Below are positions 10,045 to 37,380 of a DNA stretch of 64,000 bases, one piece after another. Origin of the DNA: Apoderus coryli (Eukaryota; Arthropoda; Insecta; Coleoptera; Attelabidae); contig OU452199.1 of the NCBI GenBank assembly GCA_911728435.2, positions 22,020,860-22,084,859 of the forward strand, read 5' to 3'. Every line of letters starts with the position of its first letter. Within the stretch, counting starts at the first letter, position 1. Both the position numbers and the translations under genes were made by a program. The notes below the pieces were generated by a model, which worked only from the letters and a program-made list of their open reading frames with translations, was not told where the DNA came from and did no database searches.

Positions 10045-13000
10045 CCTGTTTACATTTAGAACGGATTTAATATGGTATTATAAGCAAATCCAAATGCAAA
10101 AGCTATTGGGATTAATTTGTAGTTTTCAGATTCTATCAGGATTGCCCAATAGAACCTGTTTACATTTAGAACGGATTTAATATGGTTTTATAAGCAAATC
10201 CAAATGCAAAAGCTATTGGGATTAATTTGTAGTTATCAGTTTCTATCAGGATTGCCCAATAGAACCTGTTCACATTTAGAACGGATTTAATATGGTATTT
10301 TAAGCAAATCCAAATGAAAAAGCTATTGGGATTAATTTGTATTTATCAGATTCTATCAGGATTGTCCAATAGAACCTGTTTACATTTAGAACGGATTTAA
10401 TATGGTTTTATAAGCAAATCCAAATGCAAAAGCTATTGGGATTAATTTGTAGTTATCAGTTTCTATCAGGATTGCCCAATAGAACCTGTTTACATTTAGA
10501 ACGGATTTAATATGGTTTTATAAGCAAATCCAAATACAAAAGCTATTGGGATTAATTTGTAGTTATCAGTTTCTATCAGGATTGCCCAATAGAACCTGTT
10601 CACATTTAGAACGGATTTAATATGGTATTATAAGCAAATCCAAATGCAAAAGCTATTGGGATTAATTTGTAGTTATCAGTTTCTATCAGGAATGCCCAAT
10701 AGAACCTGTTTACATTTAGAACGGATTTAATATGGTTTTATAAGCAAATCCAAATGCAAAAGCTGTTGGAATTAATTTGTATTTATCAGATTCTATCAGG
10801 ATTGCCCACTAGAACCTGTTTACATTTAGAACGGATTTAATATGGTTTTATAAGCAAATCCAAATGCAAAAGCTATTGGGATTAATTTGTAGTTATCAGT
10901 TTCTATCAGGATTGCCCAATAGAATCTGTTCACATTTAGAACGGATTTAATATGGTTTTATAAGCAAATCCAAATGCAAAAGCTATTGGGATTAATTTGT
11001 AGTTATCAGTTTCTATCAGGATTGCCCAATAGAACCTGTTTGCATTTAGAACGGATTTAATATGGTTTTATAAGCAAATCCAAATACAAAAGCTATTGGG
11101 ATTAATTTGTAGTTATCAGTTTCTATCAGGATTGCCCAATAGAACCTGTTCACATTTAGAACGGATTTAATATGGTATTATAAGCAAATCCAAATGCAAA
11201 AGCTATTGGGATTAATTTGTAGTTATCAGTTTCTATCAGGATTGCCCAATAGAACCTGTTTACATTTAGAACGGATTTAATATGGTTTTATAAGCAAATC
11301 CAAATGCAAAAGCTGTTGGAATTAATTTGTATTTATCAGATTCTATCAGGATTGCCCACTAGAACCTGTTTACATTTAGAACGGATTTAATATGGTTTTA
11401 TAAGCAAATCCAAATGCAAAAGCTATTGGGATTAATTTGTAGTTATCAGTTTCTATCAGGATTGCCCAATAGAACCTGTTCACATTTAGAACGGTTTTAA
11501 TATGGTATTATAAGCAAATCCAAATGCAAAAGCTATTGGGATTAATTTGTAGTTATCAGTTTCTATCAGGATTGCCCAATAGAACCTGTTTACATTTAGA
11601 ACGGATTTAATATGGTTTTATAAGCAAATCCAAATGCAAAGGCTATTGGGATTAATTTGTAGTTATCAGTTTCTATCAGGATTGCCCAATAGAACCTGTT
11701 TACATTTAGAACGGATTTAATATGGTTTTATAAGCAAATCCAAATGCAAAAGCTATTGGGATTAATTTGTAGTTATCAGTTTCTATCAGGATTGCCCAAT
11801 AGAACCTGTTTACATTTAGAACGGATTTAATATGGTTTTATAAGCAAATCCAAATGCAAAGGCTATTGGGATTAATTTGTAGTTATCAGTTTCTATCAGG
11901 ATTGCCCAATAGAACCTGTTTACATTTAGAACGGAGTTAATATGGTTTTATAAGCAAATCCAAATGCAAAAGCTATTGGGATTAATTTGTAGTTATCAGT
12001 TTCTATCAGGATTGCCCAATAGAACCTGTTTACATTTAGAACGGATTTATTATGGTTTTATAAGCAAATCCAAATGCAAAAGCTATTGGGATTAATTTGT
12101 AGTTATCAGTTTCTATCAGGATTGCCCAATAGAACCTGTTTACATTTAGAACGGATTTAATATGGTTTTATAAGCAAATCCAAATGCAAAAGCTATTGGG
12201 ATTAATTTGTATTTATCAGATTCTATCAGGATTGCCCAATAGAACCTGTTTACATTTAGAACGGATTTAATATGGTTTTATAAGCAAATCTAAATGGAAA
12301 AGCTATTGGGATTAATTTGTATTTATCAGATTCTAGCAGGATTGCCCAATAGAACCTGTTTACATTTAGAACGGATTTAATATGGTATTATAAGCAAATC
12401 CAAATGCAAAAGCTATTGGGATTAATTTGTATTTATCAGATTCTATCAGGATTGCCCAATAGAACCTGTTTACATTTAGAACGGATTTAATATGGTTTTA
12501 TAAGCAAATCTAAATGCAAAAGCTATTGGGATTAATTTGTATTTATCAGATTCTAGCAGGATTGCCCAATAGAACCTGTTTACATTTAGAACGGATTTAA
12601 TATGGTTTTATAAGCAAATCTAAATGCAAAAGCTATTGGGATTAATTTGTATTTATCAGATTCTAGCAGGATTGCCCAATAGAACCTGTTCACATTTAGA
12701 ACGGATTTAATATGGTATTATAAGCAAATCCAAATGCAAAAGCTATTGGGATTAATTTGTATTTATCAGATTCTATCAGGATTGCCCAATAGAACCTGTT
12801 TACATTTTGAACGGATTTAATATGGTATTATAAGCAAATCCAAATGCAAAAGCTATTGGGATTAATTTGTATTTATCAGATTCTAGCAGGATTGCCCAAT
12901 AGAACCTGTTTACATTTAGAACGGATTTAATATGGTTTTATAAGCAAATCCAAATGCAAAAGCTATTGGGATTAATTTGTATTTATCAGATTCTATCAGG

Positions 13001-13145
13001 ATTGCCCACTAGAACCTGTTTACATTTAGAACGGATTTAATATGGTTTTATAAGCAAATCCAAATGCAAAAGCTATTGGGATTAATTTGTAGTTATCAGA
13101 TTCAATCAGGATTGCCCACTAGAACATGTTTATATCTAGAACGGA
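10045..13145. repeat. 110-bp tandem array, about 28 units
   Basis: Successive copies begin cctgtttacatttagaac at exact 110-base spacing (10045, 10155, 10265, 10375 and so on). Units differ at a few positions. Several variants recur 550 bases apart, for example aaatacaaaag at about 10535 and 11085, and gctgttggaatt at about 10763 and 11313, marking a five-unit higher-order duplication. No open reading frame runs through it. Confidence 0.97.
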
Positions 13146-16100
13146 TTTAAATGTAAATCCCTGTATATTATTATAAATAAATTATAACTCTTCAATTTTG
13201 TTGAAAAACGTTAAGGTCTATAGTATTATAGGATTACTTACCTCTTCGTCGAATTAATTTTCATTTATTATTATTATTTTTTATATATGTCTAGAATTAT
13301 TGTTTTAAAAAACCATAACTTTGGGATTTGTGGAAGCAAAAAAAAGTCTGCACTCGGTTACATGTACTTTTTTTCTATTTTAAAATTACATGTCAATATT
13401 TATCTCAATGTTCACCTAAAACAAAATATAAAATATTTTATATAGCAAAATATTAATAATACTTAATCGATGAGTAGAAACAAGTACGTTTTATCACTTC
13501 ACCAAACATAATTTTTTTAATGTATACGCGCGTTTTGGTAACAATGTTAGCATCTTCAAAAGAGAACTAAAATGCTTAGTCAACATCACTTGAAAATAAA
13601 ATAAAAGTGATTTGAAATGAAGTGGTAAGACGTGTGCTTAATTGTCTAATAATTACAATTAATAAAATAGTTTATTCTCACAGTATAGTAGTAGTAGTAG
13701 TATAGTAATAACACAAATAACGTCAATTTTATCAAATGACATAAAAACGGTAGCAAAACATGTTTCGTAAGTAGAAACTGTAATCATTAACATTAGGTAC
13801 ATACGAAAACAAAGATATCAAAATCATAATTCAATTATGTTTTATTTAGAACATATTAATATTCTTTGAACTAACATATATTTTTTTGTCATACATATAT
13901 TATGTGAAATGATGAATACTAAATTTTTACGCGAAATGAATAATCATAATATACCTAATTATTTAATTTATATCAGGCAAGTGTCTGGTCTTTTAAAATC
14001 ACCACACTGACGTAGGCGTAAAGAAGTTTAAAGACGTCTTGTCTTGGGTTTCAATAATAATCTGATTATGGAAATGTTTTAGAAGATAGATATTGTGAAC
14101 TAAATAAGTAGCCATTTAAGTTTTAGGGCTCCATAATATATTGAGCGGCTAAGTTTAATGAAAATTATTTTTGGAATGTTATCATAAATAAGTGTTTTAG
14201 GTCATTTTATACGTAAATAAGTACTTGTTGAACCAAATTTGGTAAACCATAAACATTTCTAAGTTCTGAACTTTTGGCAAAATAAAAAAAAAACATAACT
14301 ACCTAAAAATCTTACTGGGCTTGCCTGAAGACAGTAGATACACCACATAGCCACATAGTAAACTTGGTCTACATACGCGATATAAAATGAGTGCCTTAGA
14401 GAATCCCGTGAAAAGTGTATAAAACGAATAAACCCAATATTTTTGTCGACTATAAAATAAAGATGTTAGGACTTTTTTTATAGAAAAAAGTATAACATAA
14501 AATTGTTATTGAATAATACTAACTTTCCGTTCCTCATGTCTTATTGTCTAAAATATCTTCACTCTCTACGTTTATTTCTTCAGAGGTTTCCGTATTCTCT
14601 TTTAAATTATTATTTTTCATCCCATCTAAAAAGAATTTCAAGTCATGACTAACTTTTTGTGGAAAAGTTAGACATTGGAATATTAAAATATCAGTTATGA
14701 AAATACTGTTAAGCAGTTCATTACATAAACAATACTTTTATTTAATTGGTACTTACCACAGCTCTGCCGGGGCGCCCTATTAATATCGGATATCTTTATC
14801 CCAATCCAGGTATTTACTTTTGATAACTGGGTACGCATGGCGAATTCATCAGTCCCTTTTTTAATTAAATAAAATGTTGCATTATCTGAAAATGCAAAAC
14901 GAATCAGTTCCATGTATTGGCTTCAGATATGCCATCTAAATATGCCCAAACAGAAATAAAATTAGAATAAATAAGCCATTCTTACAGCGAGCGGTGTGCA
15001 ATTTTAATAGCAAAGTAAAAAACAAATGTCACCACAAATATGTTTTATATTAACGCCTTTATAGAGACACGTTTCGAGAGTATAATACACTCATCATTAG
15101 CCTGCAGCAACCTAGTGCTGGAAAACCGAACAATTAAACATTCACATTTCAATGCAGAACCTGTTCTGGGGAGCATTTAAGAGTTTAAATGGTAAAACGT
15201 AAGTATTTACAATACAAACATTGTAATAACGGTATTTATATTGCTACAGACTGATGATGAGAGTGATATATCACAGAAACATGTTTATATAGTAATTCCG
15301 ACTAATATCTGCATTGATAATTAAAGTATTATTAGAATCATGCTGCTAAAAAAATTGGAGATGTCATCGGACAGGGTTCTTGTTAATTTTCCAGACTGAA
15401 TAAGAGATATTATAATTAGGTGGATGAGACAGAAATGTACTTGAAGATTGATATTGAAATATAGAAAGAATCTTCCAGATGACAAATTTGCCCACAAACA
15501 AAACCTTATATTGCAGACGTACAAGAATCATAGAACAACGGCAGACTTATCGCACTGAATACAAAATTTGTTTAAAAACATTGCAAAGAATAATAAATTA
15601 AATTATTGGTGTGGAAATAAAATAAACTTCCTGAATTGGTTTTTTTACCTTTGTGTCATAAGGAAAATCTGCCTCACGATCATAATGAAACCTATAAAAC
15701 GGTAGCAAGTGAGAACCTAAAAGTTCCATTTTAGTCATGATATCAATGATACTTGAACGTTCAAAATTATACGGTTTTCAAAATACCAAAGCTACCTTCT
15801 AAGGAGAAACTGTGTTCTTGGTAAGGTTTCTACAAAAATAGCAAGCAAACACTTTATAAACTACTAAGTACTAGATGGATAAAGCTAAAAAATATGATTT
15901 CACTCTTACTTAATTTTGAAACAACGTCGAAGACATTTTTGGCAACCATTGAACATTTAATAACTCATTTGTTGCTTTCAGTTGTTCCCTCAAATTATTT
16001 AGTCTCATTGGCTTTCGTGAATTTTCTTTCAGAATTTCCTCTGGGTTTAACATTTTAATTCGCTTTTCCCTTATCTGCGTTTTTTTCGCTTATCTGCGTT

Positions 16101-18684
16101 TTCAGAGCATCAATATCGCCTAAAACAACATGATTTATTTAGATTTACAGACGAATATAAATTTAAAAAGTAATCAATAATAAAAATAGCAAAAATACCT
16201 TCAATATATAAAATACATGCATCATAGTACTGCTGCTCTACTGGCCACTTTAATTTATATTTTTTATAAAACATTATATTGTAAGTTTTTTTATATCATC
16301 GGTGATTCCAATCTCCTGTACTATATCATCATCAAGGAATCTGAGATAAGCATACCCCATACTAAAAAGTGTAAAAAGTTCTTAAATATTCTCATTAATT
16401 CTCAATTATTAATATAATAATAAATTATCATTAATTCTTTAGATCTTTCATCTCCCAAAAGTCTTGAATGCGTGTATAAATTGAAGAAAATTTAATAAAA
16501 TAAAAATTGTTAAAATAACAACAAATAATGTTCAATATTTCACCGTTTTGGAAAATTTAACACATTTTTTTTATTAATTGATTGTGGTGAAATATCTATT
16601 ATTACAGTACCTATATGTACAGGGTGTATTCTGGTTGATGGTATACACTTTGTTTTGTTGTTTTGGGAAAAGTAACTAAGTACGAATATTTTGAAAATGT
16701 AAGTCAATACTTAAGTTGGATTTTTTCGATATAGTTAATTAGGTAGACAACTATTAAAACGTTTTTTTCTTTATTCACGTTGATAATGTTCACAAGAATA
16801 AGTGTATTCTACCACTTCACCCAAATTACATATTATAGTGACAATATTGTAGGCTGATAGATTAGGTATTAGTACAGCTAATACACACAATTAGCTGTCG
16901 TATTAGGTTGATCTGAATAATCACTTACATTTTCAAAACAATCGTATGGTTACTTGTCGCAAAACTTCCAATATACCATCGACATCGACCAGCAATCAAC
17001 CTGTATCTTATACAAATAACCATAGGTACCAAAGATTAATATACATAATATATTATTTATATTAATCTTTGCCTATACTGTGTATCTACTACATTGCGTG
17101 CGTACTAATGATAATGATTACTATAATATTATATTAGCAGAGCATAGGCCATGTTTTTATTCCTTATAAAGACAATCATATACCTTGGTAAAAAGAATAA
17201 TTTATTTGCTTACCTGCCTCTTATAATTCGGAATCAATTTTCTCACACCGTCGTTAACAAATCACAACACAACCCACAACACAAAGTTATTTAGTTATTT
17301 TATGCTGTTAGATAGTCATAGATAAAAGATATTATAATATATATTTAGGTTAGCATTTACACTTATTTTATTACACAATTGAGATAGAGTAATTAACATA
17401 TTATTGATAATGAAAAACAAAACATAAACCGACGCCATAACAAAACACGATGCTAGAAATGGAATTTGGGAATTCCCCTTTGTTGTTTGTGTGTGGGTGT
17501 GTGGTATGGTCCGGCTAGGCTAGATTAAGTAAAAAATTGTACCGCAGCAGTGTTTGTCATAGGGAATTATCAAATTGTAACATATTTTATTTGACAATTC
17601 CAAAATCAAGATTATTACAGACCTTGTTGTCTGATTATTATGCATGAGTTTATTTAGTTGACGATAGTTTTTTATTGTTTTCTGGAATATATAATGACGA
17701 CATAGAGATTGCAACAGATGTTTTAATTACATTTAGATATTTTGACTTTTTATATAAAGACAATAACAAAATATGCGCCATAGCAATTAATATAATACTA
17801 GATAATAGGTATATAAATATACGCTATTATTGTTATAGATAGAGAATAGTAGGTATTAAATAAGCTACCAAAATTGAGTTATGACGACATACATGTTGTA
17901 TTCAGACACACTTCTGGATGTGATTGTATTAATATTCATGTCTTCACCCATTCTATAATAATTTTGAAATATACTATGATTATGGTATAATTCTATACCG
18001 TGTCAGAAGTCAGCTGCAATCGGCAACACTGAACTCTGAACTATTCCCAAGCGTCAAGCATAAACCACTATACCTACTTACTAGTTGCCAGATTTAGGTC
18101 AAATCCGCAGTTTTGTCGCGATTTTCTTAATAAAATATTCAAATATATTTGATATATTTATTATAAACTAAAATATAAATGGTGATATATATTATAGGTT
18201 GTCCATTATTTCAATTTTAGTTTTTTTCTTATTAGTTATTTTTTTATTTATTTAGTTATCATGTCATAGGCAAAACCAGGAGCAAATGTATGTTCATGCC
18301 AACGCAATTGTGACTCTTTTGATATACTTTGCTATTTTTTCTTATGCAAAAAAATGTAATTAAACTTTGAATACCTATCTGTGCGTTAGTAAAATTTACT
18401 ATGTATATAATTATGTATATAGGTAGGTAATATCAAAGATTAATGTCTTTGGTAATAGTGAAGGCTATACCTCGGCAACACTGAGTATTAGTAAATGATC
18501 AGCGTTGCCGGTTGTAACATAATAATTATTACAATTTTGCACTAAATCTGGTACTAAATTTGTACTGTAAAATGAATTTAATGAATCTGTACTAGGATTT
18601 TTTATATACTAAATTGGCCAACAATTGACCTTTTTTTCTTGGTGACGTAACATAATATGTTGTAAAATCTGAGCAGCTTGGAAT
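13146..18684. other. Body of the left copy outside the gene
   Basis: Mostly AT-rich DNA matching 29640-35834 in reverse. Contents I can support besides the gene at 14533-16355: a MITE-like unit at about 16610-17030 with imperfect inverted ends (cagggtgtattctggttgat and its counterpart), a hairpin at about 17034-17085 around caaagattaatat, and two facing hammerhead-like motifs at 15071-15100 and 15251-15279. Short frames elsewhere look accidental. Confidence 0.55.
14533..16355 (-). pseudogene. Spliced gene of unknown family in the left copy
   Basis: Minus-strand exons with plausible splice sites. The last exon is 14533-14625 (ends DILDNKT, stop). The one before it, 14757-14885, lies between an ATTTTCAG acceptor and a GTAAGTACC donor and encodes FYLIKKGTDEFAMRTQL and WIGIKISDINRAPRQSC. 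These two join in frame (Cys then Asp). An exon ending at 15649 encodes MELLGSHLLPFYRFHYDREA. An exon starting at 16119 encodes MLNPEEILKENSRKP and LREQLKATNELLNVQWL. A short exon starting at 16199 encodes KWPVEQQYYDACILYIE and joins the previous exon in frame through Gly-Asp. A further stretch at about 16290-16355 encodes YLRFLDDDIVQEIGI, loosely SAM-like. Frameshifts and a short internal duplication (ACGCAGATAAG repeated) show decay. I do not recognise the protein; captured host gene and element-encoded accessory gene both remain possible. Confidence 0.5.
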
Positions 18685-19545
18685 CTGGAGATTTGGAATA
18701 CCTTATTGAAACCAATAAATTGCAAATAAAGAATTTCCTATTAATCCATATTGAAACCAATTCGTTTTGTGGCAATTTTTATTCAGTACTTCCATATTAA
18801 ACGCAATTGAAATAAGCAGTTTTATGCCGCATAAAAACTAATTCAAACTGATAAAACCAAATTAAACATTTGATTTGGAATACCTTATTGAAACCAATAA
18901 ATTCAAAATAAAGAATTTCTTATTAATCTATAATGAAACCAATTCGTTCCATGGTAATTTTTATTCAGTACTTCCATATTAAACGCAATTGAAATAAGCA
19001 GTTTTATGCCGCGTAAAAACTAATTCAAACTGATAAAACCAAATTAAACATTTGATTTGGAATACCTTATTGAAACCAATAAATTCCAAATAAAGAATTT
19101 CTTATTCATCCATATTGAAACCAATTCGTTCCATGGTAATTTTTATTCAGTACTTCCATATTAAACGCAATTGAAATAAGCAGTTTTATGCCGCATAAAA
19201 ACTAATTCAAACTGATAAAACCAAATTAAACATTTGATTTGGAATACCTTATTGAAACCAATAAATTCCAAATAAAGAATTTCTTATTAATCCATATTGA
19301 AACCAATTCGTTCCATGGTAATTTTTATTTAGTACTTACATATTAAACGCAATTGAATAAGCAGTTTTATGCCGCATAAAAACTAACTCAAACTGATAAA
19401 ACCAAATTAAACATTTGATTTGGAATGCCTTATTGAAACCAACAATTCCCAAATAAAGAATTTCTTATTAATCCATATTGAAACCAATTCGTTTTATGGC
19501 AATTTTTATTCAGTAATTCCATATTAAACACTATTCATTTTAACC
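18685..19545. repeat. 182-bp tandem array, about 5 units
   Basis: Repeated blocks starting tttggaataccttattgaaa, each with a ccgcataaaaactaattc segment, at about 182-base spacing. Inverse of the array at 27640-29630. Confidence 0.95.
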
Positions 19546-19815
19546 TATTAAATCCGTATAAAACCCACTTTGTTTTGAATCTGTAATGGCATATTAGATC
19601 TAATCATATTTAAAACTTATAGAGACCAATACAATTCCATTGATGTGTTTTATATGTATATCCAAATAAACCCAAACCATATTGAATCATATAAGATTAC
19701 TATTAAAATAACATAGAGCTTGTCAAAGCCAGATTAAAAACTAGGTATATTCACTTATAGATACTTATAGATCCAGATCAAGTTTTAATATGATTCTATA
19801 CGGTATTTTCAACAG

Positions 19816-21600
19816 GGGCAGCGGCATCACCATTGCTCTCTTCCAGGATTGCGGGAAGACGGAGTTTAAAAGACAAAAGTTCATCACATGAGTGATATAG
19901 GGCAAAAGGTAAGGCCGAAATAAGAAAAGGGTACTAACATTGACCATCGCTTCCTGTTGCTTTCGTTTTTATTTTCCTTGTAACGTTCACTGCTACAAAA
20001 TTAAATTGCTCAGAACTCAAGTCATGAACCAAATTGTCGTACTGGGAGAGAACATCATCGCTGGGCTTCAAGCTGGGAACAGAGTTGATAAAATAACTAT
20101 TATTCGAGTCAGCGTTGAAGGCAATTCCGCAGATACTTTATTTTTTATATTTAAAAATTTGAGAGCACTCCATGTGTCTTTCTGATCTGTAATATTAAGT
20201 TTGTGACAGTAATATGCCTTTTTTTCCCTGCGAACCGCAGCTGTAAACATATTTCTCAAAGTTTTATAGTTATTTCTATCTGCTTCGATCCTTGTTTTTT
20301 TGTATTTGGTCATAGCCTTATCTCTGTTTTTTTTTTAATGCACGCAAACCCAAAGTCAACCATGGTGCATAAGGTTTACTGATTCGAAACGTACGATAAG
20401 GTGCATAAATATTAAGTAACTGTAACATACTAGGGAGTTAAGGCAAAGCCAGTGACGTATACGTAAACGTATCTTTTGACATCTACGGATGCGCTCTTTA
20501 AATTTATGATACGTTTAACGATACGAAGGCCGTAAACATATGTACCTCTACGCGTATCGTATACTTAAACGTATTGAGCCGATTGTTGTCGGAATTACAT
20601 GAACTTGTACGAATATCTATATTAAAAATTAAGCTAAGCTATTTTGCAATAAATACTTTATTATTATAATTAGTAGTAGTTTATTTTGTAACAATTATAT
20701 ACATTTTTCTGTTATTGTTTATAGGTATACATAATAAAATATATAGGTATATGGTTAATAATTAAAAAAAAAATAATATTAACAACATAGTAAATGGAAG
20801 TAGAAAAATCTAAGAGTCTTTTTCTCAAGTAAAGTGTTATCTCTACCTTCCGCATATACGATACGTATTGGATGGCACCTTAACTCTATTTTGAATGACT
20901 GCTTATCTAGTGTAAACATAACCAAAATCTCACGTTTACGTATGGAGATACGTATACGTTCTCGGTTTTGCCTTAACTTAATATTTACATTAAAATCTCC
21001 CATACATAATATGTGATCCACCGTACCCATAAATGATGAAATAGTATTTTCAAAGACTTGTAAAAAGGCTGTAAAATTGTCTCTGGGATGATGGTACACA
21101 ACACCTATCGCTATTTTAACACTCCCCAACTTCACCTGAATCCACAACTGTTCAATTTCATGACTACTATTAACCACGATGTAATCAATGTCTGTTCTGA
21201 CATAAATCCCAACACCACCTCCCCGTCCAACTCTGTCCACTCTGACGAAACTGTAACCAGGTATACCGATAGCTCTATCCGAAATATTGGCATCCAACCA
21301 ACTTTCTGTGAGCGCCATAATATCGAAACATTTATCACTCAGGACACCACAAAAATTGTCAAAATGAGCTATAAGCGACCAAACATTTAGGTGTGCACAA
21401 TTGAAATAGTTCTCATACATAGTGCTTATTTAATAACAATAAAAAAAGAAAAACAAAAAAATATTAATCAAACAATTTGTTAAATACAGAATCAAAAAAC
21501 AAAATAACCGACAGTTATAATAAAATATAAAATATTATAATAAAAATATAAATTTCTACGAAATTTGGAAATGAAAAGATTAATAAACGCTTATACAAAT
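19816..21600 (-). pseudogene. Jockey-like non-LTR element, EN and start of RT
   Basis: The N-terminal endonuclease begins at about 21420 with NCAHLNVWSL, MALTESWLDA, GRGGGVGIYVR and ends at CMGDFNVN. Such APE-type endonucleases nick target DNA so that the RT can prime from it. A 531-bp TTAA-flanked MITE interrupts it at 20442-20972, and part of the second half of EN is missing. Reading resumes at about 20425 with APYRTFRISKPYAPWLT, then DRNNYKTLRNMFTAAVRREK, ATGSDG and MNFCLLNSVFPQSWKRAMV, all typical of the EN-RT linker and first RT block. RT is then cut at 19816 by the large element. Frames change several times. Its 3' UTR may be the piece at 9803-10044. Confidence 0.8.
20442..20972. mobile_element. 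TTAA-flanked MITE inside the endonuclease
   Basis: TTAA at 20438-20441 and 20973-20976 flanks a 531-bp unit with ends GGCAAAGCC and GGTTTTGCC (imperfect inverted repeats). The interior has many TACGTATACG and AAACGTATC motifs in both orientations. TTAA duplication is typical of piggyBac and Kolobok superfamilies. It carries no gene. Confidence 0.75.
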
Positions 21601-21623
21601 TAAGAATTAAATTAAATTAAATA

Positions 21624-22237
21624 TTATTGACAATATATATATGGCCCTTGTTTGACTAAAATTGCTGAGAACAGGATTCAGTTGATGCAGAATTCAGGCA
21701 CACGGCTTGTATGTGGAATTCGTAGGGGTGAAAGAGGCTAGCAATAAGATTAAGGAAATCGGCTGGTTAAGAAAGAAACAACGTCGGATTTTCATTCACT
21801 AATTTTGATTAAGAAAAATCATCAGATGGAAATAGGTGGAATACTTATATGAAATATTGAAGTTTCGGGGTTCGGTGTATGATGTGAATATTCCTCATAA
21901 AACTGTCATTACGCCACCGCTAGACTCAACATCAATCCTTGAGCGGTCATTTTTCTATACGGTTTCAAAATATTTCAACGCTCTACCGGAGAATATAAAA
22001 AGTTTACAGGGGTTTTCGTTTAAGAGCGCTGTCTGACACGTAATAGAACAAATTAATTTGTAAACATAAGCTACCTACTTAATTTGGCCAGTGATGTAAA
22101 ACGATTTTCAGATAGGTTTAAGCTAAAATGTAAGTTACGTTTAGGTTAAGTTAGGAAGCACTGCTTCAACTTTTATAAACATTTCTTTTTTACTAATAAA
22201 GTATTTATTATTGTTGTGTTTATTATTATTATTATTA
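21624..22237 (+). pseudogene. Non-LTR 3' fragment carried within P copy 1
   Basis: 5'-truncated non-LTR retrotransposon end. It encodes the C terminus of an RT protein (STSILERSFFYTVSKYFNAL, then PENIKSLQGFSFKSAV and a stop at 22036), then a 3' UTR with gttaagttaggaagcactgc, an AATAAAG signal and a (TTA)n tail. The RT core is absent. The same fragment, at the same place, occurs in P copy 2 at 42948-43562. Confidence 0.75.
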
Positions 22238-22582
22238 AAAATCACCCAATCATGTCAACATTTAACTGATACCACCACTCAAGGCTGTTTTCAATCACTA
22301 CGACACACCACAAATATTTCTGAAATTGACAGCGAAATTATTATGTACTTAAATATTTTTACAAAAATGAAAATACAGTACTGTGGTTAGAAACCGAAAA
22401 CTATAACAAAATGGCGGCGTCATACGTCACAGTTTATTTCAAAGTGCCAACGTGGAGTCGGAATGCTGTACTTATTAATGCTGTGCAAAAACTATATTAT
22501 GACAACTGTCAAAGTCAAAGAGAACTGTGTCACGGATTATTATATAAGCAGATGCGACACATATATATTTTAAACTAATTAA

Positions 22583-22866: not shown

Positions 22867-22913
22867 CCCCCACTAGTTTAAAATGTCCAAACACCAAAAT
22901 ATAAACTTAGAAA

Positions 22914-25432: not shown

Positions 25433-25541
25433 CAAAAACTATATTATGACAACTGTCAAAGTCAAAGAGAACTGTGTCACGGATTATTATATAAGCAGAT
25501 GCGACACATATAAATTTTAAACTAATTAATGTTGGATATTC
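25433..25541. repeat. Uninterrupted copy of the P copy 1 right flank
   Basis: CAAAAACTATATTATGACAA and the following ~90 bases match 22486-22593 nearly perfectly. At 22486 the same sequence begins right at the P terminus; here it is preceded by gcttt, so this looks like the unoccupied site. It may be LTR-derived. Confidence 0.65.
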
Positions 25542-25669
25542 TGTTCTGTTTATAAAAGTTACCATCAAAGGAAAAATAGCAGTGGTTAAAGACAAAAGTC
25601 AGGAGTAAGACAAAATTATGTTTGGACAAAGTAGTGCATTTTGATACCTTGCCTTAACCTATTGACTTT

Positions 25670-26350
25670 CTATGGTATCATAACTATCAGATCAAGCGGA
25701 ATGTTGGTGAACAATGACACCACGTCCAATGACACAAGATTATAATTCGCAGGCACCGTTCTATTCTGCATGGAGTTCACAAAGGAAAAAGTGTTCGAAA
25801 CATTGTAGCATTACACTCCACAAAGCCTCACTTAGGATTTTGGATAAATAGGTCGATAAATTGTACGTGATGTTGTTAACACAACTCACAAACGGCCTAA
25901 GGGGAACATTTACTTTATGAATTTTTGGGAGGCAATATAATTTAGCCGGCACAGCATTATATATCGTTAGAAACTTTGCTGTTTCCGTGTCCATTTAAAT
26001 TTGTGATTTCAATGATCTAATTAATTGATTTAGCTTTTGTGTAAACGTGCTTGTAGGATCCCTATTTAATCGTTCGTAATTATTAGCGTCACTTAAAAGA
26101 TCAGTGTTTTTTTTTATATAGTCTCTCTTGTTCATAGCTATAGTACATCTGCCTTATCTGCCTGTACTATTATAATTCTGGGTTCTCCCTGAGAAACTTT
26201 TTTGTTTTTTGATATGTTTTTTGAATATTAGTTAATTTGCTAGAATGTGACTTATTTTTTCATCTACATCCATTTTGAACTGTTGTGTTGTTGTCATTGT
26301 TATGTGTTTTAAATTTTATAACAAGTTGGCCTAGCTGACTCTCAATGTAA
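25670..26350 (-). pseudogene. Penelope-like element, N-terminal region and RT start
   Basis: The minus strand reads VQADKADV, AMNKRDYIKK, NNYERLNRDPTSTFTQKLN, then VPAKLYCLPKIHKVNVPLRP and, after a frameshift near 25760, LVSLDVVSLFTNIPLDLIV. These are RT blocks of Penelope-like retroelements. An in-frame TAA lies just before the MDTETAKFLTIYNAVP segment. The RT palm, linker and GIY-YIG parts are missing. Confidence 0.82.
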
Positions 26351-27179
26351 GTTTTGGTTTTTTGTTGTTTTCGTGATGATTTTCTTTATTGTAAAACTCA
26401 CAATTTTAGCTTTTCCTCCTGATGAAGTCAACGATGTTTGACGAAATATAGAGGCTTTTAGATTAAATGAGTTGTTTTTTAATGAGCTAACAGACCGCTA
26501 ACCCGATAGCTTTGATATACAATACTACGTATAAGTACGGTCGAGATATAATAACAATATATAGATATATCTATAAAAATAGACTGTTTCTTGAAATTCG
26601 TCATATTTATAGAGAAACAAATAGCATTAATTACAAACCTGATATTCAGTTGAGCAACATATATTGTAACATTTTAAAGTCCATTTAATTTAATTATTTT
26701 GCTGATACATCCTGTATCTTTCAACCTTTTGATAATGCCCCTTTTTGTAATTTTCTGCATGCACTAATGTAAAAGTAAAATAATAAAAAAAACCATATAT
26801 TCTAGTCGATACCCAAAACTATTCACTTTCTAATCTAACTATACAAATTTTTAGAACTGGACTGAGTGAAATTGTTAATGTGTTTGGATTGTTTTAATAC
26901 TCTAATCTGTAAGCATTTATTTTATTTCTAATGTTTTGCTGTTTCATCATCGTTATATTTGTTGTAATTGTATTAAAGCTAATTTGGAATTTTTGTAGTT
27001 TACTCCTGATGATGACGGAAATAAACATCGAAATATGGAGGTAATAAAGAAAAAAAGAGTTACTTATAAATTAATCACAGACCGAACACCTGATACTCCC
27101 GTTTCCAGTTAAATATTGTGCGGTCGATAATACTAGCAAGATTATATAAGTTGAGTGGTAGTCTTTGCTGGCTAGTTAA
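26351..27179. other. Region with two hammerhead-like terminal motifs
   Basis: No coding frame supported. On the plus strand CCTGATGAAGTCAACG...GACGAAA (26418-26446) and CCTGATGATGACGG...ATCGAAA (27005-27033) both sit in a similar context (followed by tat-gagg, and cagaccg about 70-80 bases later). They look like the ends of two related repeats. Confidence 0.45.
26419..26446 (+). ncRNA. Hammerhead-like ribozyme motif (tentative)
   Basis: CTGATGA, a 5-bp stem GTCAA/TTGAC with a 6-base loop, then GAAA, the core order of a hammerhead ribozyme. Known Penelope-like elements carry minimal type I hammerheads in their terminal repeats. It lies next to, but antisense to, the Penelope piece at 25670-26350. 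Stems I and III were not convincingly modelled. Confidence 0.35.
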
Positions 27180-27639
27180 TAGATAACTGTGTTTCTTGGG
27201 TTGATCAGCAAATCTTTTTGAATAAAACTATTTTTCGTTATGCCAAGCTTTCGATATATTTTTATATCTTCCTCGGGGCTACAAATATAAGAGTAAGCTA
27301 AGTATAAATATATATAAAATTTAAAAATATGTTTACCTTAGTATACGAGGTAACCCTGTTGAAAATACCGTATAGAATCATATTAAAACTTGATCTGGAT
27401 CTATAAGTATCTATAAGTGAATGTAGGTTTTAATCTGGCTTTGACAAGCTCTATGTTATTTTAATAGTAATCTTATATGATTCAATATGGTTTGGGTTTA
27501 TTTGGATATACATATAAAACACATCAATGGAATTGTATTGGTCTCTATAAGTTTTAAATATGATTAGATCTAATATGCCATTACAGATTCAAAACAAAGT
27601 GGGTTTTATACGGATTTAATAGGTTAAAATGAATAGTGT

Positions 27640-29630
27640 TTAATATCGAATTACTGAATAAAAATTACCATAAAGAAATTCTTTATTTGGAATTTATTGG
27701 TTTCAATAAGGTATTCCAAATCAAATGTTTAATTTGGTTTTATCAGTTTGAATTCGTTTTTATGCGGCATAAAACTGCTTATTTCAATTGCGTTTAATAT
27801 GGAAGTACTGAATAAAAATTACCATGGAACGAATTGGTTTCAATATGGATTAATAAGAAATTCTTTATTTGGAATTTATTGGTTTCAATAAGGTATTCCA
27901 AATCAAATGTTTAATTTGGTTTTATCAGTTTGAATTAGTTTTTATGCGGCATAAAACTGCTTATTTTAATTGCGTTTAATATGGAAGTACTGAATAAAAA
28001 TTACCATGGAACGAATTGGTTTCAATATGGATTAATAAGAAATTCTTTATTTGGAATTTATTAGTTTCAATAAGGTATTCCAAATCAAATGTTTAATTTG
28101 GTTTTATCAGTTTGAATTAGTTTTTATGCGGCATAAAACTGCTTATTTCAATTGCGTTTAATATGGAAGTACTGAATAAAAATTACCATGGAACGAATTG
28201 GTTTCAATATGGATTAATAAGAAATTCTTTATTGGGAATTTATTGGTTTCAATAAGGTATTCTAAATCAAATGTTTAATTTGGTTTTATCAGTTTGACTT
28301 AGTTTTTATGCGGCATAAAACTGCTTATTTCAATTGCGTTTAATATGGAAGTACTGAATAAAAATTACCATGGAACGAATTGGTTTCAATATGAATTAAT
28401 AAGAAATTCTTTATTTGGAATTTATTGGTTTCAATAAGGTATTCCAAATCAAATATTTAATTTGGTTTTATCAGTTTGAATTAGTTTTTATGCGGCATAA
28501 AACTGCTTATTTCAATTGCGTTTAATATGGAAGTACTGAATAAAAATTACCATGGAACGAATTGGTTTCAATATGGATTAATAAGAAATTCTTTATTTGG
28601 AATTTATTAGTTTCAATAAGGTATTCCAAATCAAATGTTTAATTTGGTTTTATCAGTTTGAATTAGTTTTTATGCGGCATAAAACTGCTTATTTCAATTG
28701 CGTTTAATATGGAAGTACTGAATAAAAATTACCATGGAACGAATTGGTTTCAATATGGATTAATAAGAAATTCTTTATTGGGAATTTATTGGTTTCAATA
28801 AGGTATTCTAAATCAAATGTTTAATTTGGTTTTATCAGTTTGAATTAGCTTTTCTGCGGCATAAAACTGCTTATTTCAATTGCGTTTAATATGGAAGTGA
28901 TGAATAAAAATTACCATGGAACGAATTGGTTTCAATATGGATTAATAAGAAATTCTTTATTTGGAATTTATTGGTTTCAATAAGGTATTCCAAATCAAAT
29001 GTTTAATTTGGTTTTATCAGTTTGAATTAGTTTTTATGCGGCATAAAACTGCTTATTTCAATTGCGTTTAATATGGAAGTACTGAATAAAAATTATCATG
29101 AAACCAATTGGTTTCAATATGGATTAATTAGAAATTCTTTAATTGGAATTTATTGGTTTCAATAAGGTATTCCAAATCAAATGTTTAATTTGGTTTTATC
29201 AGTTTGAATTAGTTTTTATGCGGCATAAAACTGCTTATTTCAATTGCGTTTAATATGGAAGTACTGAATAAAAATTATCATGAAACGAATTGGTTTCAAT
29301 ATGGATTAATAAGAAATTCTTTATTTGGAATTTATTGGTTTCCATAAGGTATTCCAAATCAAATGTTTAATTTGGTTTTATCAGTTTGAATTAGTTTTTA
29401 TGCGGCATAAAACTGCTTATTTCAATTGCGTTTAATATGGAAGTACTGAATAAAAATTATCATGAAACGAATTGGTTTCAATATGGATTAATAAGAAATT
29501 CTTTAATTGGAATTTATTGGTTTCAATAAGGTATTCCAAATCAAATGTTTAATTTGGTTTTATCAGTTTGAATTAGTTTTTATGCGGCATAAAACTGCTT
29601 ATTTCAATTGCGTTTAATATAGAATTGCTG
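27640..29630. repeat. 182-bp tandem array, about 11 units
   Basis: The landmark tttcaataaggtattccaaa recurs at 27701, 27883, 28065 and 28247, exactly 182 apart. Two variants (ttattagtttc at about 28059 and 28605; attgggaattt at 28231 and 28777) recur 546 bases apart, marking a three-unit higher-order duplication. Confidence 0.97.
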
Positions 29631-29817
29631 AATAAGAATTGCCACGATGCGATTGGTTTCAATACGGATTCAATAAAAAATTTCATTCATGTTCGTTATC
29701 CTAAATAATGCAGATTTCTTGAGCTCCTTATTTTAAGAAATTATTGCATAAAACAACACGGCGCGGCGTCTTAAGTTATTAAAATAAAATATATACCTAA
29801 ACATTAATAATGTAAGG

Positions 29818-30251
29818 GTTATTCTTTCGTACTGAACTAAGTGAACAATCTGAAAATTGTCAGTTCATTCACGATTGTGCGTATTGTTTCGACATCGGTC
29901 ACTTCTAACAAACTGATTAAAATTCCTACCCCCGTTGCCGCTTACTGATCAACCTCTAGGTACCGGTTAATTCGTTCAGTTAACAGCTAACCTCTAAAAG
30001 TATTGAGAGATAATAATTGGCATATGATTTCGAATCAAACCAATAAATTGTAAAAGTTTAAAACATGGATAATAATATCATGGAAGAAATAATTTTCCAG
30101 TTTTCAGAGCAGATTTGGTTGTTTTCGAGGTTAAGTGAAAGACAATCACAAAAAAGATGATCTTTCGGTTTCGCCAAATATTCAGTTCAGTATAATCACA
30201 TTCAGTTTAATCACATTCACTTGTTCAGACCAATCACTACGAAAGAATAAC
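29818..30251. mobile_element. 434-bp MITE present only in the right copy
   Basis: Bounded by GTTATTCTTTCGTA and its complement TACGAAAGAATAAC. It lies in about 740 bp (29650-30390) that has no counterpart in the left copy. A short frame (MDNNIMEEIIF) inside is probably fortuitous. The target duplication was not resolved. Confidence 0.65.
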
Positions 30252-33200
30252 GCTATAGATAGATGAGGTCATTGTCTTTATAAAGACAACTACTACTTTG
30301 TTTTTTGTGTTTTGACAAAATAGTTATGATTTTCTTACCGTATCCACTGTTGCCGATAACATGCTTAAACATAATATTATAATGTTATAGCTGCTCAGAT
30401 TTTACAACATATTATGTTACGTCACCAAGAAAAAAAGGTCAATTGTTGGCCAATTTAGTATATAAAAAATCCTAGTACAGATTCATTAAATTCATCTTAC
30501 AGTACAAATTTAGTAACAGATTTAGTGCAAAATTGTAATAATAATTATTATGTTACAACCGGCAACGCTGACCATTTACTAATACTCAGTGTTGCCGAGG
30601 TATAGTCTTCACTATTACCAAAGACATTAATCTTTGATATTACCTACCTATATACATAATTATATACATAGTAATTTTTACTAACGCACAGATAGGTATT
30701 CAAAATTTAATTACATTTTTTACATAAGAAAAGATAGCAAAGTATATCCAAAGAGTCACAATTGCGTTGGCATGAACATACATTTGCTCCTGGTTTTGCA
30801 TATGACATGATAACTAAATAAATAAAAAAATAACTAATAAGAAAAAAACTAAAATTGAAATAATGGACAACCTGTAAAATATATCACCATTTATATTTTA
30901 GTTTATAATAAATATATCAAATATATATGAATATTTTATTAAGAAAATCGCGACAAAACTGCGGATTTGACGTAAATCTGGCAACTAGTAAGTAGGTATA
31001 GTGGTTTATGCTTGACGCTTGTGAATAGTTCAGAGTTCAGTGTTGCCGATTGCAGCTGACTTCTGACACGGTATAGAATTATATCATAGTATATTTCAAA
31101 ATTATTCTAGAATGGGTGAAGACATAATACAATCACATCCAGAAGTGTGTGTGAATACAACATGTATGTCGTCATAACTCAATTTTGGTAGCTTATTTAA
31201 TACCTACTATTCTCTATCTATAACAATAATATCGTATATTTATATACCTATTATCTATTATTATATTAATTGCTATGGCGCATATTTTGTTATTGCCTTT
31301 ATATAAAAAGTCAAAATATCTAAATGTAATTAAAACATCTGTTGCAATCTCTATGTCGTCATTATATATATATTCCAGAAAACAATAAAAAACTATCGTC
31401 AACTGAATAAACTCATGCATAATAATCAGACAACAAGGTCTGTAATAATCTTGATTTTGGAATTGTCGAATAAAATATGTTACAATTTGATAATTCCCTA
31501 TGACAACACTGCTGCGGTACAATTTTTTATTTAATCTAACCTAATACAATACCACAGCCACACACAAACAACACGTGTTTTGTTATGGCGTCGGTTTATG
31601 TTTTGTTTTTCATTATCAATAATATGTTAATTACTCTATCTCAATTGTGTAATAAAATAAGTGTAAATGCTAACCTAAATATATATTATAATATCTTTCA
31701 TCTATGACTATCTAACAGCATAAAATTACTAAATAACTTTGTGTTGTGTGTTGTGATTATTATTATAAGAAGCAGGTAAGCAAATAAATTATTCTTTTTA
31801 CCAAGGTATATCATTGTCTTTATAAGGAATAAAAAACATAGCCTATGCTCTGCTAATATAATATTATAGTAATCATTATCATTAGTACGCACGCAATGTA
31901 TTAGATACACAGTATAGGCAAAGATTAATATAAATAATATATTATGTAAATTAATCTTTGGTACCTATGGTTACTTGTATAAGATACAGGTTGATTGCTG
32001 GTCGATGGTATATTGCAAGTTTTGCGACAAGTAACCATACGATTGTTTTGAAAATGTAAGTGATTATTCAGATCAACCTAATACGACAGCTAATTGTGTG
32101 TATTAGCTGTACTAATACCTAATCTATCAGCATACAATAATATTGTCACTATAATATGTAATTTGGGTGAAGTGGTAGAATACATTTATTCTTGTGAACT
32201 TTATCAACGTTAATAAAGAAAAAAACGTTTTAATAGTTGTCTACCTAATTAACTATATCGAAAAAATCCAACTTAAGTAATTACTTACATTTTCAAAATA
32301 TTCGTACTTAGTTACTTTTCCCAAAACAACAAAACAAAGTGTATACCATCAACCAGAATACACCCTGTACATATAGGTACTGTAATAATAGATATTTCAC
32401 CACAATCAATTAATAAAACAAATGTGTTAAATTTTCCAAAACGGTGAAATATGGAACATTATTCGTAGTTATTTTAACAATTTTTATTTTATTAAATTTT
32501 CTTCAATTTATACACACATTTAAGACTTTTGGGAGATGAAAGAAGATCTAAAGAATTAATGATAATTTATTATTATATTAAGAATTGAGAATTAATGACA
32601 ATATTTAAGAACTTTTTACTCTTTTTAGTATGGGGTATGCTTATCTCAGATTCCTTGATGATGATATAGTACAGGAGATTGGATTGGATTGGATCACCGA
32701 AGATATAAAAAACTTACAAACCTTTGTATTTTATATATTGAAGGTATTTTTGCTAGTTTTATTATTGATTACTTTTTAAATTTATATTCGTCTGTAAATC
32801 TAAATAAATCATGTTGTTTTAGACGATATTGATGCTCTGAAAACGCAGATAAGCGAAAAAAACGCAGATAAGGGAAAAGCGAATTAAAATGTTAAACCCA
32901 GAGGAAATTCTGAAAGAAAATTCACGAAAGCCAATGAGACTAAATAATTTGAGGGAACAACTGAAAGCAACAAATGAGTTATTAAATGTTCAATGGTTGC
33001 AAAAAATGTCTTCGACGTTGTTTCAAAACTAAGTAAGAGTGAAATCATATTATTTAGCTTTATCCATCTAGTACTTAGTAGTTTATAAAGTGTTTGCTTG
33101 CTATTTTTGTAGAAACTGTGTTCTTGGTCCTTACCAAGAACACAGTTTCTCCTTAGAAGGTAGCTTTGGTATTTTGAAAACCGTATAATTTTGAACGTTC

Positions 33201-35834
33201 AAGTATCATTGATATCATGACTAAAATAGAACTTTTGGGTTCTCACTTGCTACCGTTTTATAGGTTTCATTATGATCATGAGGCAGATTTTCCTTATGAC
33301 ACAAAGTTAAAAAAACCAATTCAGGAAGTTTATTTTATTTCCACACCAATAATTTAATTTATTATTCTTTGCAATGTTTTTAAACAAATTCTGTATTCAG
33401 TGCGATAAGAAGTCTGCCGTTGTTCTATGATTCTTATACGTCTGCAATTTAAGGTTTTGTTTGTGGACAAATTTGTCATCTGGAAGATTCTTTCTATATT
33501 TCTATATTTCAATATTAATCTTCAAGTACATTTCTGTCTCATCCACCTAATTATAATATCTCTTATTCAGTCTGGAAAATTAACAAGAACCCTGTCCGAG
33601 GACATCTCCAATATTTTTAGCAGCATGATTCTAATAATACTTTAATTATCAATGCAGATATTAGTCGGAATTACTATATAAACATGTTTCCGTGATATAT
33701 CACTCTCATCATCAGTCTGTAGCAATATAAATACCGTTATTACAATGTTTGTATTGTAAATACTTACGTTTTACCATTTAAACTCTTAAATGCTCCCCAG
33801 TACAGGTTCTGCATTGAAATGTGAATGTTTAATTGTTCGGTTTTCCAGCGCTAGGTTGCTGCAGGCTAATGATGAGTGTATTATACTCTCGAAACGTGTC
33901 TCTATAAAGGCGTTAATATAAAACATATTTGTGGTGACACTTGTTTTTTACTTTGCTATTAAAATTGCACACCGCTCGCTGTAAGAATGGCCTATTTATT
34001 CAAATTTTATTTCTGTTTGGGCATATTTAGATGGCATATTTGAAGCCAATAAATGGAACTGATTCGTTTTGCATTTTCAGATATTACAACATTTTATTTA
34101 ATTAAAAAGGGACTGATGAATTCGCCATGCGTACCCAGTTATCAAAAGTAAATACCTGGATTGGGATAATGATATCCGATATTAATAGGGCGCCCCGGCA
34201 GAGCTGTGGTAAGTACCAATTAAATAAAAGTATTGTTTATGTAATGAACTGCTTAACAGTATTTTCATAACTGATATTTTAATATTCCAATGTCTAACTT
34301 TTCCACAAAAAGTTAGTCATGACTTGAAATTTTTTTTAGATGGGATGAAAAATAATAATTTAAAAGAGAATACGGAAACCTCTGAAGAAATAAACGTAGA
34401 GAGTGAAGATATTTTAGACAATAAGACATGAGGAACGGAAAGTTAGTATTATTCAATAACAATTTTATGTTATACTTTTTTCTATAAAAAAAGTCCTACC
34501 ATCTTTATTTTATAGTCGACAAAAATATTGGGTTTACTTTTTATCCGTTTTATACACTTTTCACGGGATTCTCTAAGGCACTCATTTTATATCGCGTATG
34601 TAGACCAAGTTTACTAGGTGGCTATGTGGTGTATCTGCTGTCTTCAGGCAAGCCCAGAGATTTTTAGGTAGTTATGTTTTTTTTATTTTGCCAAAAGTTC
34701 AGAACTTAGAAGAAATGTTCAGTAGTATGGTTTACCAAATTTGGTTCAACAAGTACTTATTTACGTATAAAATGACCTAAAACACTTATTTATGATAACA
34801 TTCCAAAAATAATTTTCATTAAACTTAGTCGCTCAATATATTATGGAGCCCAAAAACTTAAATGGCTACTTATTTAGTTCACAATATCTATCTTCTAAAA
34901 CATTTCCATAATCAGATTATTATTGAAACCCAAGACAAGACGTCTTTAAACTTCTTTACGCCTACGTCAGTGTGGTGATTTTTTAAAAGACCAGACACTT
35001 GCCTGATATAAATTAAATAATTCGGTATATTATGATTATTCATTTCGCGTAAAAATTTAGTATTCATTATTTTACATAATATATGTATGACAAAAAATAT
35101 ATGTTAGTTCAAAGAACTATCAATATGTTTTAAATAAAACATAATTGAGTTATGATTTTGATATCTTTGTTTTCGTATGTACCTAATGTTAATGATTACA
35201 GTTTCTACTTACGAAACATGTTTTGCTACCGTTTTTATGTCATTTGATAAAACTGACGTTGTTTGTGTTATTACTATACTACTACTACTATACTGTGAGG
35301 ATAAACTATTTTATTAATTGTAATTATTAGACAATTAAGCACACGTCTTACCACTTCATTTCAAATCACTTTTATTTTATTTTCAAGTGATGTTGACTAA
35401 GCATTTTAGTTCTCCTTTGAAGATGCTAACATTGTTACCAAAACGCGCGTATACACTAAAACATTATGTTTGGTGAAGTGATAAAACGTACTTGTTTCTA
35501 CTCATCGATTAAGTATTATTAATATTTTGCTATTTAAAATATTTTATATTTTGTTTTAGGTGAACATTGAGACAAATATTGACATGTAATTTTAAAATAG
35601 AAAAAAAGTACATGTAACCGAGTGCAGACTTTTTTTTGCTTCCACAAATCCCAAAGTTATGGTTTTTTAAAACAATGATTCTAGACATATATAAAAAATA
35701 ATAATAATAAATGAAAATTAATTCGACGAAGAGGTAAGTAATTCTATAATACTATAGACCTTAACGTTTTTCAACAAAATTGAAGAGTTATAATTTATTT
35801 ATAATAATATACAGGGATTTACATTTAAATCCGT
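30252..35834. other. Body of the right copy outside the gene
   Basis: Matches the left copy body in reverse. Contains the same MITE-like unit (about 31950-32400), the same facing hammerhead-like motifs (about 33685-33715 on minus, 33865-33895 on plus), and a right-copy-only palindrome with 18-bp arms at 33111-33128 and 33133-33150. No other gene is supported. Confidence 0.55.
32629..34431 (+). pseudogene. Spliced gene of unknown family in the right copy
   Basis: Counterpart of 14533-16355. Exon pieces: 32629 to about 32715 (YLRFLDDDIVQEIGL); from 32823 to about 33030 (MLNPEEILKENSRKP; LREQLKATNELLNVQWL); ending near 33308 (LLGSHLLPFYRFHYDHEA); 34081-34208 (KKGTDEFAMRTQLSKV; DINRAPRQSC); 34340-34431 (ENTETSEEINVESED, stop). 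The last two join in frame across GTAAGTACC and TTTTTTTAG. The donor after DTK is AAGGTAAAA in the left copy but AAGTTAAAA here, so this copy has lost a splice site. The exon KWPVEQQYYDAC seen on the left is deleted here. Two independent decays of the same gene model support it being a real former gene. Function unknown. Confidence 0.5.
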
Positions 35835-36712
35835 TCTAGATTTAAACAGGTTCTAGTGGGCAATCCTGATAGAAACTGATAACTACAAATTAATCCCAAT
35901 AGCTTTTGCATTTGGATTTGCTTATAAAACCATATTAAATCCGTTCTAAATGTAAACAGGTTCTATTGGGCAATCCTGATAGAAACTGATAACTACAAAT
36001 TAATCCCAATAGCTTTTGCATTTGGATTTGCTTATAAAACCATATTAAATCCGTTCTAAATGTAAACAGATTCTATTGGGCAATCCTGATAGAATCTGAT
36101 ATGTACAAATTAATCCCAATAGCTTTTGCATTTGGATTTGCTTAGAAAACCATATTAAATCCGTTCTAAATGTAAACAGGTTCTATTGGGCAATCCTGAT
36201 AGAAACTGATAACTACAAATTAATCCCAATAGCTTTTGCATTTGGATTTGCTTATAAAACCATATTAAATCCGTTCTAAATGTAAACAGGTTCTATTGGG
36301 CAATCCTGATAGAAACTGATAACTACAAATTAATCCCAATAGCTTTTGCATTTGGATTTGCTTATAAAACCATATTAAATCCGTTCTAAATGTAAACAGG
36401 TTCTATTGGGCAATCCTGATAGAAACTGATAACTGCAAATTAATCCCAATAGCTTTTGCATTTGGATTTGCTTATAAAACCATATTAAATCCGTTCTAAA
36501 TGTAAACAGGTTCTATTGGGCAATCCTGATAGAATCTGATAAATACAAATTAATCCCAATAGCTTTTGCATTTGGATTTGCTTATAAAACCATATTAAAT
36601 CCGTTCTAAATGTAAACAGGTTCTATTGGGCAATCCTGATAGAAACTGATAACTGCAAATTAATCCCAATAGCTTTTGCATTTGGATTTGCTTATAAAAC
36701 CATATTAAATCC
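35835..36712. repeat. 110-bp tandem array, about 8 units
   Basis: Inverse orientation of the unit at 10045-13145, spaced at 110 bases (ggttctattgggcaatcctg). The outermost end degrades into the element's unique terminal DNA. Confidence 0.96.
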
Positions 36713-37380
36713 ATTTAAGATTCTATTGGATTCTTGTGGGTATTCCTGATTCATACTAATTATTTCAAATATGTTTTTAGTTTGGAATTGCTGTTTCAAA
36801 TACACACTATGAACCGTATTAATCCATATTAAATATTTTTTTATATGGTTCTATCTGGCATTTTCAACAGGGAAGTTTTACATTGGTAAAAATAATAAAA
36901 ATTGTAAATTAAAGAACATCCATTGAAACTTTCTTGTCAACTTTGTAAAATAATGATTAAAATTTAACATTTTTAAGTTAATTGAATTTTTTGTAATTGA
37001 CACTGACATGTTTATTCAAAAATATTTTTTTTTTTACCACAAATAAACTAAACAAAATATTTTTGAATAAACATGTCAGTGTCAATTAGAAAAAATTCAA
37101 TTAACTTAAAAATGTTAAATTTTAATCATTATTTTACAAAGTTGACAAGAATGTTTCAATTGATGTTCTTTAATTTAAAATTTTTATTATTTTTACCAAT
37201 GTAAAACTTACCTCGTATACTAAGGTAAACATATTTTTAAATTTTATATATATTTATGCTTAGCTTACTCTTATATTTGTAGCCCCGAGGAAGATATAAA
37301 AATATATCGAAAGCTTGGCATAACGAAAAATAGTTTTATTCAAAAAGATTTGCTGATCAACCCAAGAAACACAGTTATCT

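Follow-up and report, generated by a model that had tools for sequence, protein, structure and literature searches.

Two satellite arrays carried inside the ends of a probable TRC-type CACTA/EnSpm transposon in the beetle Apoderus coryli

The closest described animal elements are those of the TRC group, which DeMarco and colleagues, in the passages drawn on here, mark out by CCC ends, 2-bp duplications and Transposase_21, and which include SmTRC1 of Schistosoma and relatives in Tribolium and Aedes (PMC1636069). Spongebob, of Hydra and insects, comes near to these, as the Hydra element has CCC ends and a 2-bp duplication and was assigned to TRC/CACTA, yet it is 5.8 kb or shorter and satellite arrays are not mentioned in the sections cited (PMC4298943). 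Plant CACTA elements require both a transposase and an element-encoded protein that recognises subterminal repeats (PMC2613891, in the parts cited here). Here we analyse a window of Apoderus coryli DNA (that is, the whole stretch of 64,000 nucleotides at positions 22,020,860 to 22,084,859 of contig OU452199.1, assembly GCA_911728435.2) in which a 9,519-bp element and a second, inverted and truncated copy each carry an array of 182-bp units towards one end and an array of 110-bp units towards the other. We read the window copies as non-autonomous, recently moved members of the animal (TRC-type) branch of CACTA/EnSpm, and put the probability of this reading (family, mobility and derivation together) at about 0.82.

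The right copy occupies 27354–36872 (+), as delimited by its ends, by self-alignment and by comparison with an empty site, and is complete at both ends. Its termini form an imperfect 35-bp inverted repeat, with 30 of 35 positions identical between the 5′ (ACC-side) terminal inverted repeat at 27354–27388 (+) and the 3′ (GCC-side) one at 36838–36872 (−), the latter located by matching terminus against terminus, and both termini end in CCCTGTTGAAAAT, starting CCC; the matched ends reported for this copy in the initial annotation are thus borne out. Within the window, CCCTGTTGAAAATNCC has three matches with at most two mismatches (19802−, 27354+ and 36857−) where 0.11 are expected, a number reached in none of 100 shuffles. 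The insertion lies in one arm of a near-perfect palindrome of ~690 bp, a host repeat that it splits into 27179–27353 and 36873–37382 (by self-alignment and empty-site comparison) and that is perhaps itself a miniature inverted-repeat element. Given that the undisturbed arm serves as the empty site (GAGGT-AA-GTTTTAC) and the occupied arm reads GAGGTAA-element-AAGTTTTAC, the element termini are CCCTG...CAGGG and the target duplication is exactly AA (that is, 2 bp), present at 27352–27353 on the left and at 36873–36874 on the right.

The left copy (10044–19817, −), recognised by its arrays, ends and self-alignment, bears out only in part the earlier description of two inverted copies of a ~9.5-kb element: the copies are indeed inverted and share a body (12173–18678 versus 36792–30389, 93.9% identical; 117 substitutions in 5,370 aligned bases with the arrays excluded), but the left one is incomplete, having its 182-side end only. 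That end, the ACC-side terminal inverted repeat at 19783–19817 (−), was found by the end search and is the same as in the right copy, as had been claimed (match at 19802−). Both arrays are retained, the 110-bp one breaking off at 10044, and ~0.7 kb present in the right copy (about 29683–30388) is missing. The placing of a 182-bp array near one end and a 110-bp array near the other holds in both copies: a tandem-repeat scan gives 11.0 copies of the 182-bp unit at 27673–29682 (+) and 8.1 copies of the 110-bp unit at 35825–36712 (−) in the right copy, and the left copy has 4.6 copies at 18690–19529 (−) and 28.2 copies at 10044–13150 (−, cut off at 10044), respectively.

Across the genome (428 Mb in 129 contigs), the 16-base end has 298 exact matches (151 forward and 147 reverse), and the same 16 bases reversed, used as a control, have none. 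Positions were obtained for the first 100 of the 298 ends and for the first 100 of the 2,600 (110-bp) and 581 (182-bp) unit matches, and what is said below of location and order holds among these listed matches. Eighty-eight of the listed end positions pair into 44 elements, including the right copy of the window, each having an ACC end and a GCC end that point towards one another; the remaining 12 have no partner, though for the last of them this may simply be because the listing stops there. Apart from the window copy, the 43 elements measure 6.1–24.7 kb, ten of them 10,504–10,528 bp. Flanks were read for 42 of the 43, and an exact 2-bp duplication borders 39 (TA in 23, CA in 4, AA and GA in 3 each, TG and AT in 2 each, CG and CT in 1 each), in keeping with the mobility that had been proposed from the window alone. 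Two of the 42 (L166 and L168) have common flanks and probably reflect a single insertion within a segment that was duplicated. The copies at C5:21523673-21535280 and C5:21600580-21612188, which are separated by 77 kb, share identical 20-base flanks and are nearly equal in length, are probably a segmental duplication carrying the element. Helentrons are known carriers of satellite-like arrays, as in oysters (PMC7492417, in the part cited), but the inverted terminal repeats and the 2-bp target duplications, in place of insertion without duplication, refute a Helitron or Helentron here, and we give that explanation next to no weight.

The arrays keep one order in 14 of 14 copies checked, with 182-bp units on the ACC side and 110-bp units on the GCC side; four of these copies were examined at their two ends, where up to 1.4 kb of outer flank contained neither array, and ten by halves. 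Viewed from the satellites, the first 100 of the 2,600 genome matches to a 29-base piece of the 110-bp unit make up 7 arrays, six of which have an exact end less than 2 kb away; the seventh belongs to an element whose ACC end is 8.7 kb off, with a 182-bp array between, and whose GCC end is inexact. The first 100 of the 581 matches to a 37-base piece of the 182-bp unit make up 23 arrays, all 23 within 2 kb of an exact end, so that for both units pooled the figure is 29 of 30, and a free-standing array of either unit is absent from the 30. As the arrays sit inside the element ends, a moving element moves both satellites, and the earlier proposal that the two spread together, which called for a genome search with the ends and the units, is upheld by many copies with arrays in constant order and 2-bp duplications. 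That the transposon instead captured two pre-existing satellites is highly improbable: the thirtieth array also lies inside an element, each unit resembles the single-copy stretch of its own terminus, the two units are akin to each other (see below), and the unit matches located, a minority of those in the genome, yielded nothing in its favour.

The interiors examined fall into three classes, which we call the window type, the 10.5-kb type and the big type. The big type is represented by copies of 19, 22 and 25 kb that have the same ends and are inserted at three separate sites, each with a TA duplication. Their long colinear matches are 99.8–100% identical; all three contain the 110-bp array, and the 182-bp array is seen in both copies for which the retrieved sequence extends that far. 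On the strand opposite to the element sense, this type has an uninterrupted frame of 742 amino acids, preceded by one of 157. A sawfly Tnp2 homologue (P0012) is 36% identical to the 742-residue frame and carries Transposase_21 above the Pfam cut-off (30.8 bits), and 29 of 61 homologues carry this domain. The longer relatives with a transposase that the initial annotation had proposed looking for are thus at hand, and their enzyme is Tnp2-like (Transposase_21), as in TRC elements. Searches of the window copies detected no transposase, and since longer relatives sharing their ends encode one, the window copies are non-autonomous, as had been suggested: in the right-copy body, ten stop-to-stop pieces match no Pfam family above the cut-off; for a 75-residue piece of the left copy no homologue was found; and tblastn of the window with five queries gave no match. 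On the combined evidence of its CCC ends, its 2-bp duplications and Tnp2, the family falls within the animal TRC branch of CACTA/EnSpm. Anatomy, mobility, transposase family and the relation to the big type are established by sequence comparison.

Three side observations concern these enzymes. Uninterrupted frames of 693 and 713 amino acids at C16:12261845 and C22:7957405, ~31–32% identical to a 236-residue Tnp2-like piece described below, represent further Tnp2-like lineages in this genome. We also considered a nested element around the 742-residue gene and rejected it as far as ends of this family go, as L127 contains no second set of the same ends (one match with two mismatches is at chance level), and inverted repeats near the gene are imperfect, save one 24-bp pair outside it. 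BAH folds are known from readers of histone marks. Residues 755–869 of P0012 form a C-terminal predicted BAH-like domain, and the 742-residue frame aligns to this protein as far as residue 834; such an end of P0012 could bias insertion to certain chromatin.

With TRC elements the family has in common the terminal inverted repeat starting CCC, the Transposase_21 protein, truncated copies, 2-bp direct repeats (seen in 7 of 14 SmTRC1 copies) and, in SmTRC1, a tandem-repeat region near the 3′ end (PMC1636069, in the passages cited). It differs in having two arrays, one behind each end and akin to each other and to the termini, and in having several gene classes behind the same ends. The statement that no named family has this layout therefore needs qualifying: a two-array layout was not found in the literature searched (Repbase and most subscription papers being outside that search), but the superfamily, animal TRC CACTA/EnSpm, is a known one (PMC1636069, as excerpted). 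RAG1/Transib transposons make 5-bp duplications. They (PDB 5zdz, 6pqx) belong to another superfamily.

The three classes also suggest how the window copies arose. The window type is represented by six loci (L120, L121, L122, L125, L126 and L133) that carry at least 90% of a window-specific 2-kb stretch, of which five other loci carry part. The 10.5-kb type comprises ten copies (L098–L117), which differ by a mean of 0.06% over a 2.4-kb piece, together with L123, L124 and L134, and encodes the Tnp2-like piece of 236 amino acids, fused to remains of an accessory gene; at least 47 genome copies of this piece are 99–100% identical over at least 234 residues (a lower bound, given that 150 of 259 candidates were scored), two with an internal stop. 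An uninterrupted 721-residue frame at C1:27160301 contains the same piece, and its locus is 95–99% identical in DNA to the 10.5-kb type where the two overlap. In the right copy, the accessory gene is a broken, multi-exon one at 32609–34428 (+; pieces 32609–32776, 32853–33029, 34106–34267 and 34228–34428, with interrupted frames, traced by stop-to-stop translation and homologues in the big class), of which two pieces are present in all three types and two more in all but the 10.5-kb type; no piece has a Pfam match above the cut-off. A stretch at 29688–29895 (−) matches L127:3197-3389 (score 151; best of 100 shuffles, 54) and appears to be a remnant of the 5′ flank of a lost transposase gene: it begins at the start-codon position of the 157-residue frame (presumably the first exon), the coding part is gone and the 182-bp array adjoins. 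The 10.5-kb type has this stretch too, at 98.5%. On these sequence matches, the window and 10.5-kb types most plausibly descend from a big-type ancestor by internal deletion, and we infer that the 721-residue enzyme type arrived after the deletions.

Behind each terminus of the right copy, a single-copy stretch is followed by the array (182-bp units at the ACC end, 110-bp units at the GCC end). These stretches are diverged relatives of the neighbouring units: the 5′ one (27389–27672, +; tested as 27354–27672) scores 121 against the 182-bp unit, where the best of 300 shuffles reaches 72, and the 3′ one (36713–36837, −; tested as 36713–36872) scores 60 against the 110-bp unit, where the best of 300 reaches 39. 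Each contains one TTYAATATGG. Compared in the inward sense, the two units are also related to each other, scoring 76 where 300 shuffles gave 61 at best; in the opposite sense the score was equalled by 108 of 300. In the right copy there are 20 occurrences of the motif TTYAATATGG on the 5′ side and 9 on the 3′ side, all inward and with none in the body, and the left copy has 9 and 26, respectively, also inward; outside the elements, 44.7 kb of the window contain it once. Repetition of one motif in both subterminal regions is a feature of CACTA subterminal repeat regions. Between the big type and the other classes, the consensus of the units shows 5 differences in 110 positions and 5 in 182, whereas body pieces of at least 250 bases are 68–90% identical, most of the big body not aligning in this way. 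What appears to be new, from these comparisons, is that the two arrays are related to each other, that TTYAATATGG, facing inward, is common to the arrays and both termini, and that the arrays are better conserved between classes than the bodies.

Inverted subterminal tandem repeats on both sides, with units related in the inward sense, also recall foldback elements such as Tetris of Drosophila virilis, which likewise has tandem repeats (~220 bp) within its inverted ends and is a source of satellite DNA (PMC4079207, in the part cited). Tetris, in that account, has one named repeat family (TIR-220) and satellite arrays formed apart from it as well, whereas here the arms are not near-identical and hold different, only remotely related repeats. 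Given also that the Tnp2-bearing relatives have the same ends, a foldback origin is largely refuted and very unlikely.

For the CACTA/EnSpm reading, the nearest parallel to the arrays is found in plants. CACTA/En-Spm elements such as soybean Tgmt* combine Tnp2 with asymmetric subterminal repeats, large size and deletion derivatives, but have CACTA ends and a 3-bp duplication where we find CCCTG and 2 bp; the plant subterminal motifs, given as 12 bp (En-1) and 17–20 bp (Tgm1), with 159 and 732 bp in Tgmt*, differ from 110- and 182-bp units over about 1–3 kb (PMC2613891, in the sections cited). The arrays are likely, by this analogy, a hugely expanded CACTA subterminal repeat region, and on balance we lean towards their being functional in transposition. 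In the scenario that we envision, one ancestral subterminal sequence would have given rise, through unequal exchange, to two diverged satellites facing each other; Tnp2 transposase from intact relatives would cut and paste other copies in trans; and an element-encoded DNA-binding protein may recognise the arrays, as in plant CACTA, most probably through the inward-facing TTYAATATGG. The best candidate for this protein is the accessory gene, pieces of which recur in all three classes. A more speculative extension, which we hold only tentatively, is that ends and arrays form a conserved recognition platform behind which distantly related Tnp2 transposases were exchanged, with the accessory protein, by binding the satellites, defining which elements are moved; it builds on the 742-residue frame of one class running against the element sense, on the fragment of the 721-residue enzyme in another class running along it, the two enzymes being ~23–29% identical, and on the few differences in unit consensus between these classes (5 in 110 and 5 in 182).

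Several observations weigh against these interpretations. As to the family, Transposase_21 in the 742-residue frame scores 27.7 bits (1.8e-6), 0.9 under the Pfam cut-off, and DUF4218 falls slightly under its own; in the 721-residue frame DUF4218 is likewise under the cut-off (7e-4), and no exact end or array lies near this frame among the matches listed. As to mobility, 198 of the 298 ends and most unit matches were not located, and a clean 2-bp duplication is missing from 3 of the 42 copies (the first adjoins a run of N, the second shows a 3-bp match and the third no match). As to the arrays, the consensus was built from those units (150 and 101) in which both an anchor word and the spacing were exact, others being dropped; many of these come from near-identical copies, and such selection favours similarity. 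Nor is TTYAATATGG significantly less variable within the units (21 of 110 windows of the 110-bp unit are lower, and 34 of 182 windows are less variable than the motif pair of the 182-bp unit). The idea that the whole terminal inverted repeat recurs inside the units was tried and dropped (in eight comparisons, the best were equalled by 2 and 10 of 500 shuffles, the rest by more). It is possible, if less probable than a functional role, that in this same CACTA-type transposon the arrays are passive, inflated by slippage or unequal exchange, with only a few copies near the ends functional: array lengths vary between the window copies (4.6 versus 11 and 8 versus 28 units), the motif is not specially conserved, and exchange between elements could keep units alike as well as selection could. 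Passive arrays sit less easily with the presence of both in 14 of 14 copies, with a unit consensus better conserved between classes than the body and with a motif that points in one direction on each side.

How satellites originate is still debated, and where they have been linked to transposons the evidence often consists of old remnants. The present family contains both members of a satellite pair and has copies 0.06% apart, a readable empty site and uninterrupted transposase frames, which makes it of interest for the origin and upkeep of satellites. The proposed order, in which a common subterminal sequence gave rise to two diverged arrays that transposition then spread, is directly testable in it, as is whether a satellite is kept as a transposition signal; the CACTA subterminal repeat region, so far one of short motifs, would also be extended to arrays of kilobase size in an animal.

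Some minor observations remain. The satellites described for the pea aphid include no 110- or 182-bp family in the part of the source cited (PMC12241859). In viral contigs, the 16-letter end matches 89 loci, a pattern so short that chance matches are expected, and a phage search gave two short matches (67 bases). Beside the left copy, the two parts of the retrotransposon-like sequence at 42538–43840 recur on either flank (9318–9752 and 21620–22486), as if this copy lay within a larger block inserted into retrotransposon-like sequence, and a perfect 71-bp unit, repeated 1.9 times at 9681–9817, lies beside this truncated copy. Elsewhere in the window, a Copia-like frame contains a perfect 219-bp tandem duplication (54342–54781).

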